DNA from: Herbidospora cretacea
Lineage (GTDB): Bacteria; Actinomycetota; Actinomycetes; Streptosporangiales; Streptosporangiaceae
DNA: 64,000 nucleotides
Direction of reading: 5' to 3'
NCBI RefSeq assembly: GCF_001570605.1
Contig: NZ_BBXG01000020.1
Coordinates: forward strand, 62,001-126,000
Position 1 is the first letter of the stretch. Each line of letters starts with the position of its first letter. A program made the position numbers and the translations under genes. The notes under the pieces were generated by a model. It was not told where the DNA came from. It ran no database searches and saw only the letters and a list, made by a program, of their open reading frames with translations. This document shows positions 58,798 through 63,570 of the stretch, one piece after another.

Positions 58798-60576
<1,779 letters not shown>

Positions 60577-60720: not shown

Positions 60721-60921
60721 TCAGACGGTCCGGACAGCCTCCGCCTGCGGGCCCTTCTGTCCCTGGGTGATGTCGAACTCGACACGCTGGCCCTGCTCCA
60801 GGGCCTTGTAGCCGTCCATCATGATTGCCGAGTAATGGACGAAAACGTCCTTACCACCGTCTACCGCGATGAAGCCGTAGCCCTTGTCCGCGTTAAACCA
60901 TTTGACGGTGCCCTGCGCCAC
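60721..60921 (-). CDS. CspA-family cold-shock protein
   Basis: 66 aa: [21 protein letters not shown]1 KGYGFI, RNP2 [19 protein letters not shown], ending AEAVRTV; the standard one-domain RNA chaperone. GTG at 60921 with AGGAG 7 bases upstream is the start; the open frame to 60999 is leader sequence. Own promoter and a leader of about 100 nt, own terminator. Confidence 0.95.
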
Positions 60922-61060
60922 TTTCCGACTCCTCTTGCTGGGCCTGGCGACGGACCCGCCCATTCCACCGCTGGTCCGTGACCTTTCGAGCCGGAACACT
61001 GATGTTCTCCCCGGCTACGTCGATCGTTCTCGACCATACACATGGCAAGGCGTGGGACAA
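60922..61060 (-). promoter_or_regulatory. Promoter and long 5' leader of the cold-shock gene
   Basis: TTGTCC (61060-61055), 16 bp, TATGGT (61038-61033) on the minus strand give a leader of about 105 nt. Long structured leaders control cspA-type mRNAs. Beyond it, 61061-61208 is AT-rich and holds no gene I can support. Confidence 0.45.
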
Positions 61061-61256: not shown

Positions 61257-61532
61257 TCACCCTCCGGCTACGGCGGGGATCACCGAAATCTGTACTCCGT
61301 CAGGGGTGGGAGTGTCCAAACCTTCGGAGAATCGGACGTCCTCTTCTCCGACGTAGACGTTGACAAAACGCCGGACCTTGCCCGATTCGTCGAGGATCCT
61401 GGCCCCGATCCCCGGGTAGTCGGCGTCGAGTTTGGCGAAGACCTCGCGCAGCGTCGCGCCCTCGCCGACGACCTCCGAGGCACCCCCGGTGTACGTCCGC
61501 AGAATCGTCGGAATGCGCACAGATACACTCAT
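61257..61532 (-). CDS. cysO: CysO-type sulfur-carrier protein (MoaD/ThiS fold)
   Basis: 91 aa ubiquitin-fold carrier. It reads SVRIPTILRTYTGGASEV, RRFVNVYVGEEDVRFSEGL, and ends VIPAVAGG; these blocks match Mycobacterium tuberculosis CysO (which I recall as IPTILRPHTGG ... HRFVNIYVNDEDVRF ... ILPAVAGG) much better than MoaD or ThiS. The C-terminal Gly-Gly is adenylated and thiocarboxylated by a MoeZ-type enzyme, and the thiocarboxylate donates sulfur to a PLP enzyme. In M. tuberculosis the partner is CysM; here the neighbour is the threonine-synthase-like gene, 23 bp upstream. AAGGG 7 bases before the ATG. Confidence 0.85.
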   Translation of the reverse strand: MSVSVRIPTILRTYTGGASEVVGEGATLREVFAKLDADYPGIGARILDESGKVRRFVNVYVGEEDVRFSEGLDTPTPDGVQISVIPAVAGG

Positions 61533-61555
61533 TGTTAACCCTTCTCGACGAACAG

Positions 61556-62800
61556 TTAGTTGGCGAAAGCCGTGCGGAAGGCGTCCAGCGAGGGCCGGAT
61601 GACCGCCGAGGGGCGGGCCTCCGCCTGCACGGCGTCGAGGGTCTTGAGCCCCTCGCCCGTGTTGAGGACCACCGTGGTGGCGTCGGGGTCGATGACCCCG
61701 GCCTCCGTGAGCTTGCGCAGCACGCCCACCGTCACGCCCCCGGCGGTCTCGGCGAACACGCCCTCGGTGCGGGCCAGCAGCCGGATCGCGGCGACGATCT
61801 CGGGGTCGGTGACGTCCTCCACGGCCCCGCCGGTCCGCCGGGCGATGTCGAGCACGTAGGGCCCGTCGGCCGGGTTGCCGATGGCCAGCGACTTGGCGAT
61901 CGTGTCCGGCTTCACCGGGCGGACGACGTCGTGCCCGGCCTTGTAGGCGGCCGACACCGGGGAGCAGCCCTCGGCCTGCGCCCCGAAGATCTTGTAGGGG
62001 GTGTCCTCGACCAGGCCGAGCGCGATGAGCTCCTTGAAGCCCTTGTCGATCTTGGTGAGCTGGGAGCCCGAGGCGATCGGGATGATGATCTGCTCGGGGA
62101 TCCGCCAGCCGAGCTGCTCGGCGATCTCGTAGGCCAGGGTCTTGGAGCCCTCGGCGTAGTAGGGCCGCAGGTTCACGTTGACGAAGCCCCACTTCTCGCC
62201 CAGCGGGTCGCCGATGAGCTCGGAGCAGAAGCGGTTGACCTCGTCGTAGGAGCCCTCGATGCCGACGAGCCTGCCGCCGTACACGCTGGCGACGACGATC
62301 TTGGCCTCTTCGAGGTTCGACGGGATGAACACGCACGAGTCGAGCCCGGCCCGCGCGGCGGCCGCGCCGACGGCGCCGGCCAGGTTCCCGGTCGAGGAGC
62401 AGGAAAGGGTTGTGAACCCGAAGTTACGGGCCGCCTCAACGGCGATCGACACCACGCGGTCCTTGAACGAGTGGGTCGGGTTGCCGGAGTCGTCCTTCAC
62501 GTAGAGCTCGCGGAGGCCGAGCTCGGCGCCGAGGTTCCCGGCGCGGTGGAGCTTGGTCCAGCCGGGCTGGAGGTTGGGCTTGTCGGCGACGTTCGCCGGC
62601 ACGGGCAGCAGGGCCCGGTAACGCCAGATGTTGGCCGGACCGGCGGCGATGTCCTCGCGGCTGACGGTCCCGAAGTCGTACGCCACCTCAAGTGGCCCGA
62701 AACAGTCCTGACAGGCGAAGATCGGACCGAGGTCGTAACGGGCGCCGCACTCCCGGCAGGAGAGGGCGACGGCGGGTCCGAAGTCGTGCTGAAGCGCCAT
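61556..62800 (-). CDS. thrC: Threonine synthase-like PLP enzyme
   Basis: 414 aa. An N-terminal rubredoxin-like zinc ribbon (CRECGARYDLGPIFACQDC) is followed by a fold-type II PLP domain: SGNPTHSFKDRVV with the PLP Lys, SCSSTGNLAGAVGAAAARAG, IPIASGSQLTKIDKG, and AETAGGVTVGVLRKL. Threonine synthase converts O-phosphohomoserine to threonine. The ribbon form is usual in actinobacteria and archaea. Unusual features are the SAM riboswitch in its leader and the CysO gene behind it, which hint at a link with sulfur amino acids. ATG at 62800 preceded by GGGAAAGG. Confidence 0.88.
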   Translation of the reverse strand: MALQHDFGPAVALSCRECGARYDLGPIFACQDCFGPLEVAYDFGTVSREDIAAGPANIWRYRALLPVPANVADKPNLQPGWTKLHRAGNLGAELGLRELYVKDDSGNPTHSFKDRVVSIAVEAARNFGFTTLSCSSTGNLAGAVGAAAARAGLDSCVFIPSNLEEAKIVVASVYGGRLVGIEGSYDEVNRFCSELIGDPLGEKWGFVNVNLRPYYAEGSKTLAYEIAEQLGWRIPEQIIIPIASGSQLTKIDKGFKELIALGLVEDTPYKIFGAQAEGCSPVSAAYKAGHDVVRPVKPDTIAKSLAIGNPADGPYVLDIARRTGGAVEDVTDPEIVAAIRLLARTEGVFAETAGGVTVGVLRKLTEAGVIDPDATTVVLNTGEGLKTLDAVQAEARPSAVIRPSLDAFRTAFAN

Positions 62801-62816
62801 GAAGCGAGGCCTTTCC

Positions 62817-62951
62817 CTCATCTTCGCCTGCGACCGCCTTGATCACAGGCCGGAATTGGCACCTGTTCCGACCGGCCTCGCCCCGTGGCGAGATGAGTCG
62901 GAATGGTTGCCGGGGCTTCGCAGGGCCGGTCCCTCCACCCCTCTGGATGAG
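62817..62951 (-). promoter_or_regulatory. SAM-I (S-box) riboswitch before thrC-cysO
   Basis: Reading the minus strand from 62951: CTCATC (P1 5' strand), CCAGAGGGGTGGAGGGACC, GGCCC, GAAGCCCCGGCAACC, then AGGTGCCAATTCC and the P4 hairpin GCCTG...CAGGC, closing with GATGAG (62822-62817). All hallmark S-box core segments are present in order. The closing P1 strand runs straight into GAGGGAAAGG, the ribosome binding site of thrC, so SAM binding should block translation. Confidence 0.92.
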
Positions 62952-63009
62952 CAATATTCAGTTGTCCACAAAACTGTACCTCGGGTGGCTCAGAGTCCGA
63001 ATCGGCGTC

Positions 63010-63570
63010 TCATCTACCGAGATATCCGTCTCCGAGGGAGGCCTGGATGTGCTTCCTGGCCTGGTGGATGCGGCTCTTGGCGGTGCCGAGCGGGATGCCG
63101 AGCTGCGCGGCGATGTCGGAGTAGTCGAGCTGGACGATGTCGCAGAGCACCAGCGCGCGGGCCAGGTCGGGCTTCTCGGCCTCCAGCGCCTCGATCGCGT
63201 CGAGCAGGTCGAGCCGGGCGCCGGCGATCACGCTGACCCGGTGGGGGTCGGGCCGCTGCTCGGCCAGGTCGTCGCTCGACTGCTCGGCCGAGCGGCGCTT
63301 GAGGGTGCGGTAGGTGGTGCGGGCGCAGTTGGCGGTCACGATGTGGAGCCAGGTGGAGAACCGCGAGCGGCCCTCGAAGCGGCCGATGTTGCGGGCCACC
63401 GCGAGCAGGGTGTCCTGACAGGCCTCTTCGGCGTCCTGGCGGTAGGGAAGCAGGCGTTCGCAGTGGCGCAGCACGTCGGGCTCGACACGGCGCAGCAGCT
63501 CGCCGAGGGCGACGTGGTCGCCGGTCGCGGCGGTGCGGGCCAGTTCCTCGGTGGTCTCGTCAAGCGGCAT
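63010..63570 (-). CDS. ECF-type RNA polymerase sigma factor
   Basis: 186 aa. Sigma-2: LLPYRQDAEEACQDTLLAVARNIGRFEGRSRFSTWLHIVTANCAR (about residues 40-85); sigma-4: ALVLCDIVQLDYSDIAAQLGIPLGTAKSRIHQARKHI (about 140-178) with the HTH. No sigma-3 domain, typical ECF. No anti-sigma gene in the window on the downstream side; the upstream side is the start of otsA in the other direction. Signal and regulon unknown. Confidence 0.93.
   Translation of the reverse strand: MPLDETTEELARTAATGDHVALGELLRRVEPDVLRHCERLLPYRQDAEEACQDTLLAVARNIGRFEGRSRFSTWLHIVTANCARTTYRTLKRRSAEQSSDDLAEQRPDPHRVSVIAGARLDLLDAIEALEAEKPDLARALVLCDIVQLDYSDIAAQLGIPLGTAKSRIHQARKHIQASLGDGYLGR

Follow-up and report, generated by a model that had tools for sequence, protein, structure and literature searches.

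SAM riboswitch, threonine-synthase-like enzyme and sulfur carrier in Herbidospora cretacea: a probable MetM/MetO operon for homocysteine synthesis

A threonine-synthase-like gene of Herbidospora cretacea and the small sulfur-carrier gene that follows it very probably form a SAM-controlled MetM/MetO operon for homocysteine synthesis. Homology and genomic context support the reading of the enzyme as a homocysteine synthase, the proposed chemistry being taken over from a published homologue. The system has already been published in kind and the Herbidospora locus is best regarded as an ordinary member of it. What is added here are class-wide counts and a carrier-less variant of the locus; the variant and the sharing of a carrier by MetM may already have been described. 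The operon lies on the minus strand of the window, by which is meant the whole stretch of 64,000 nucleotides that was analysed (contig NZ_BBXG01000020.1, positions 62,001 to 126,000), and consists of the following features:

62815..62953, minus strand: SAM-I (S-box) riboswitch aptamer, full length (RF00162, 75 bits, model positions 1-108)
62798..62830, minus strand: expression platform, in which the 3' strand of the closing helix P1, GAUGAGGG, leads into the ribosome-binding region (GAAAGG) and the start codon
61556..62800 with the stop codon (from 61559 without it), minus strand: metM-like PLP enzyme of 414 aa, threonine-synthase-like, a proposed O-phosphohomoserine-dependent homocysteine synthase
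61257..61532 with the stop codon (from 61260 without it), minus strand: metO-like sulfur-carrier protein of 91 aa, a CysO paralogue with the C-terminus AVAGG

The aptamer (62953-62815, minus strand) scores well above the RF00162 gathering score of 44.4 bits (E 9e-16); no other Rfam match in the window reaches its gathering score, and the genome as a whole contains no further RF00162 match. The metM-like enzyme matches the Pfam PALP profile with 221 bits and has an intact PLP lysine, K113, in the motif HSFKDR. Its closest solved structures are threonine synthases (2zsj, 1uim and 2d1f), and none of the structures among the 32 sequences matched is named MetM. The metO-like gene starts 23 nt past the stop codon of the metM-like gene and encodes a protein of the ThiS/MoaD or ubiquitin fold (Pfam ThiS, 56 bits), whose best solved relatives are 4n6e and 3dwg, the latter of which we take to be M. 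tuberculosis CysO. Together with a match of the enzyme to the NCBIfam thrC model TIGR00260, these results confirm the combination of SAM riboswitch, threonine-synthase-like enzyme and carrier on which the original prediction was built. The order on the minus strand is riboswitch, metM-like gene, metO-like gene, cold-shock protein and GroEL. The first gene found upstream of it, likewise on the minus strand, encodes an ECF sigma factor (63010-63570).

A matching arrangement is described from Streptomyces, where MetM is a homocysteine synthase that converts O-phosphohomoserine to homocysteine (Hasebe et al. 2024, doi 10.1128/aem.01247-24, via PMC12172450). The available part of the latter source places a SAM riboswitch upstream of S. 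albulus metM and assigns metO to a sulfur-carrier family, so that threonine-synthase-like enzyme, metO carrier gene and upstream SAM riboswitch are common to both organisms. Orthology to S. albulus MetM rests on this shared architecture, the two loci being likened by description; for the S. albulus MetM and MetO sequences PMC12172450 gives the record BHXC01000007. In Streptomyces, metO reportedly lies downstream of metM and its thiocarboxylated product is said to be the sulfur donor. A carrier thiocarboxylate is reportedly also the sulfur donor for homocysteine in Wolinella, with the difference that the Wolinella enzyme is said to be of the MetY type and to use O-acetylhomoserine. Wolinella homocysteine synthesis is named as a protein thiocarboxylate pathway in the part of PMC5764234 that was available.

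In the proposed mechanism the C-terminal glycine of MetO would be converted to a thiocarboxylate, probably by a MoeZ-type ThiF-rhodanese protein encoded elsewhere in the genome. MetM would then use PLP to eliminate phosphate from O-phosphohomoserine and add the carrier sulfur at the gamma carbon, and homocysteine would be freed from the carrier, possibly with the help of a Mec protease; the roles of the activating and releasing proteins are inferred. Homocysteine would be converted to methionine and on to SAM, which in turn would fold the riboswitch, whose closing helix P1 has a 3' strand that continues into the ribosome-binding site, and would switch off translation, while threonine would be supplied by a separate ThrC. 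The synthesis of homocysteine from O-phosphohomoserine and a carrier thiocarboxylate under repression by SAM had been put forward in the original prediction and, being essentially the same as the published MetM/MetO system (PMC12172450, in part), is supported by the present analysis.

The pair is conserved among named relatives, 155 of which were found and the best 80 kept, all of them close (82-99%). Six named Herbidospora genomes carry a metM-like enzyme that is 98-99% identical. All of the best 80 of 155 have the carrier 13-52 nt downstream of the metM-like gene, the carrier ends exactly in AVAGG in 78 of these 80, and the riboswitch RF00162 was present in each of the 15 of them that were scanned. 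This arrangement of riboswitch, enzyme and carrier is conserved beyond chance. The two remaining MetO proteins, at L046 (AVAGGQ) and L066 (AVAGGC), have one extra residue after Gly-Gly, and presumably the Q or C needs to be trimmed before thiocarboxylation. Further downstream in the window, the genes for the cold-shock protein (60721-60999, minus strand) and GroEL (58798-60495, minus strand) have matches beside metM-metO in 79 and 76 of the 80 relatives' loci respectively, several of these loci ending at a contig edge. A plasmid-borne pair was considered and rejected, as only one of 37 matching plasmid records is close and the other 36 are less than 60% identical; the sole close match is an 11.9-Mb record of Nonomuraea gerenzanensis, judged on its size to be a chromosome.

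The association extends throughout the class, which was sampled in 98 genomes that are at least 90% complete and include that of H. cretacea. A MetM-type protein, 59-100% identical, is found in 74 of the 98, the cut having been placed after viewing a gap between E 2.5e-117 and 1.8e-74. RF00162 lies upstream of MetM in all 74, at 14-289 nt from the matched start, a result obtained from two counts, one of them with stricter filters. These sites account for 74 of all 81 RF00162 matches in the 98 genomes, or of the 78 above gathering score; three of the seven matches away from MetM are below it. Four of these seven were read, and two (L238, L240) stand ahead of genes that by eye resemble ABC-transporter ATPases. 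A carrier gene adjoins MetM, at 8-195 nt, in 52 of the 74 genomes. A MetX match is absent or weak in 41 of the 74 MetM genomes compared with 4 of the 24 without MetM (Fisher p ~0.001, relatedness not corrected). The 41 include two weak MetX matches (G017, G046), the strict count being 39 of 74, and a clear MetX is kept in the other 33.

The genome of H. cretacea encodes four carriers of the ThiS fold. The original prediction had called the carrier in the window CysO; it is indeed a ThiS-fold carrier ending in Gly-Gly, but it is a paralogue, 60% identical to CysO proper, which belongs to a mec-cysO-cysM operon located on a different contig (L095; mec and cysM named by eye, cysM also by NCBIfam profile score). 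The other two carriers can be read from context and sequence as ThiS (L096) and MoaD (L098). A ThiF-rhodanese protein of the MoeZ type is encoded elsewhere in the genome (L104). MoeZR sulfurates CysO (PMC3227635, in part), and the MoeZ-type protein may do the same for MetO.

Not every MetM is accompanied by a carrier. There is no adjacent carrier at 22 of the 74 class loci, two of which (G004, G060) have their match at a contig edge, leaving 20 of 72 readable loci (L170, L171, L175, L176, L195, L199, L203-L208, L229-L231 and L233-L237; the SCP loci are L209-L228). A divergent carrier that had been missed was looked for by re-testing the 825-2542 bases downstream of these 20 loci, and this gave neither a carrier match, apart from fragments attributable to chance, with E allowed up to 10, nor a reading frame on the same strand that has 50 or more codons and ends in Gly-Gly. 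The riboswitch is retained at every one of these 20 loci, and each of the 20 genomes encodes CysO within a mec-cysO-cysM operon. The carrier-less state corresponds to three changes on the MetM tree, a quick tree with SH-aLRT support only and some long branches. The simplest reading is that carrier-less MetM may borrow CysO, with free sulfide as a possible alternative.

These loci bear on the question of whether MetO is the sulfur donor at all. MetM could make homocysteine from O-phosphohomoserine with free sulfide, or CysO, in vivo and leave MetO an auxiliary role, and the repeated absence of the carrier from loci that keep their riboswitch, in genomes that all possess mec-cysO-cysM, is what such an explanation would lead one to expect. 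It is nevertheless very unlikely for the locus described here, given that the carrier is directly downstream in 52 of 74 class genomes as well as in every one of the best 80 named relatives, with an almost invariant AVAGG end. A broader proposal is that the carrier is exchangeable. MetM without MetO, in several actinobacterial families, would draw on the CysO of mec-cysO-cysM, so that cysteine and homocysteine would be supplied with sulfur from a single pool of thiocarboxylate. Herbidospora MetM/MetO would stand beside a complete MetX-MetY route and, of the two, would alone be subject to SAM control of the RF00162 type; the chances of this proposal being correct are judged to be slightly below even.

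The relationship of MetM to threonine synthase requires closer attention, as TIGR00260 gives the metM-like enzyme 269 bits against a cut-off of 167. A second thrC, which the original prediction had suggested should be sought, was found at L002 (C10:7721); it scores 309 bits with the same model and is followed by a gene that by eye resembles homoserine kinase. Since both proteins exceed the cut-off, MetM and ThrC cannot be told apart by this model. The presence of a separate ThrC means that the metM-like copy need not serve threonine synthesis, and makes it unlikely, as judged from gene content, that MetM is needed for threonine supply. Orthologues of this ThrC occur in every one of the 74 MetM genomes and in 97 of the 98 class genomes overall. 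A third threonine-synthase-like gene (L003, G000:C9:269356-270333) is 29% identical to MetM, does not reach the cut-off for any of the 10 NCBIfam families that were listed and by eye lies beside a LacI-type regulator.

The two types of enzyme share the sequence family, the PLP lysine motif and probably the substrate, and differ in the SAM switch, the carrier partner and a set of residues; identities of MetM with ThrC are 35-37%. Comparison of the 74 MetM-type proteins with 30 ThrC-type proteins (the best-scoring 30 of 97) revealed 35 positions at which conservation is 95% or higher inside each group but the two groups differ, and 67 that are conserved in both; the PLP lysine is retained in both groups. 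T89, R161 and N189 of the H. cretacea ThrC are replaced by L140, Y215 and S244 in 74 of 74 MetM-type proteins, and the metM-like enzyme thus lacks residues that are invariant in ThrC. In an alignment to 1uim, with the numbering counted by hand, the 35 positions include those of Tth T88, R160 and N188, presumably contacts of the phosphate.

It could still be argued that the metM-like gene encodes a genuine second threonine synthase, with SAM balancing the branch between threonine and methionine and the carrier being a bystander or serving another enzyme. Besides the thrC equivalog score and the closest solved structures, such an argument could draw on Microcystis, where a ThrC that is 51.6% identical to S. 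albulus MetM adjoins a metO-like gene and has threonine synthase and deaminase activity (PMC12172450). The same source, in the part available, describes this locus as being without a riboswitch and gives its authors' conclusion that the protein does not fully act as MetM in the cell. The separate ThrC orthologue in every MetM genome, the consistent replacement of residues invariant in the 30 ThrC proteins compared, the SAM-I switch found at every one of the 74 loci, which fits methionine and not threonine, and the report of the Streptomyces homologue as a homocysteine synthase (PMC12172450, in part) all speak against a true threonine synthase, which is very unlikely indeed.

A mechanistic precedent is the CysM-CysO-Mec system of Mycobacterium, which shares with MetM/MetO a PLP enzyme that takes sulfur from a carrier thiocarboxylate but uses O-phosphoserine to make cysteine (PMC3227635, in part) and has its own operon in H. 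cretacea. The best match between MetM and CysM is 26% over 85 residues, and the metM-like enzyme is not a CysM-type enzyme accompanied by mec. That it is some other phospho-amino-acid sulfur transferase, for example in cysteine or cysteate synthesis, is almost certainly wrong in spite of the CysM/CysO precedent and a slight resemblance to cysteate synthase (43.5 bits, cut-off 325), since the scores are far under the cut-offs of those families, mec-cysO-cysM is encoded elsewhere in the genome and the control is by SAM, not cysteine.

The preferred homocysteine synthase would not act alone in H. cretacea. The genes metX, metY and metB, which had also been proposed as worth looking for, are all represented, the last by a metB-like gene, unlike in a genome where MetM/MetO would be the sole predicted route to homocysteine. 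MetX reaches 489 bits with NF001209 (cut-off 331) but only 448 with TIGR01392 (cut-off 500); MetY, encoded next to it, scores 629 bits with TIGR01326 (cut-off 495) and the cystathionine gamma-synthase 663 with NF005871 (cut-off 513), while no acyltransferase of the MetA type was found in the genome. With these enzymes present there is no gap that demands MetM, and MetM/MetO is predicted to be a second route in Herbidospora; the co-occurrence with MetX, MetY and a metB-like gene is a point of difference from the S. albulus system. No other switch known to Rfam was detected at gathering score at the seven other loci scanned (metX, metY, metB-like, cysO and thrC-like), including the cysO-cysM locus.

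The likely start codon of the metM-like gene is the second ATG (62800) and not the first (62821), because the latter is inside the aptamer, as part of its 3' strand, and among the 15 relatives that were read there are 3 (L026, L061 and L040) in which it is not in frame. The motif AGAUGA, a portion of the P1 3' strand in the window, precedes the MetM start at each of the 74 class loci, with 9-21 nt between it and the first in-frame ATG or GTG that follows. A short AGG, GGA or GAG is found within 8 nt after AGAUGA in 73 of the 74, this pattern being permissive and picked after the sequences had been viewed. With P1 stabilised by SAM, the ribosome site would be masked or crowded, and repression by the riboswitch is therefore inferred to be probably translational, through occlusion of the ribosome-binding site. 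A competing hairpin is also predicted near the start codon in the window.

Curated libraries name this gene threonine synthase, which means that methionine synthesis is easily mis-predicted in the actinobacteria that carry it. Its interpretation as a SAM-controlled homocysteine synthase would fill a gap in the 41 of 74 MetM genomes that are without a clear MetX, and the carrier-less loci provide a direct test of whether the synthesis of cysteine and that of methionine share one sulfur carrier.
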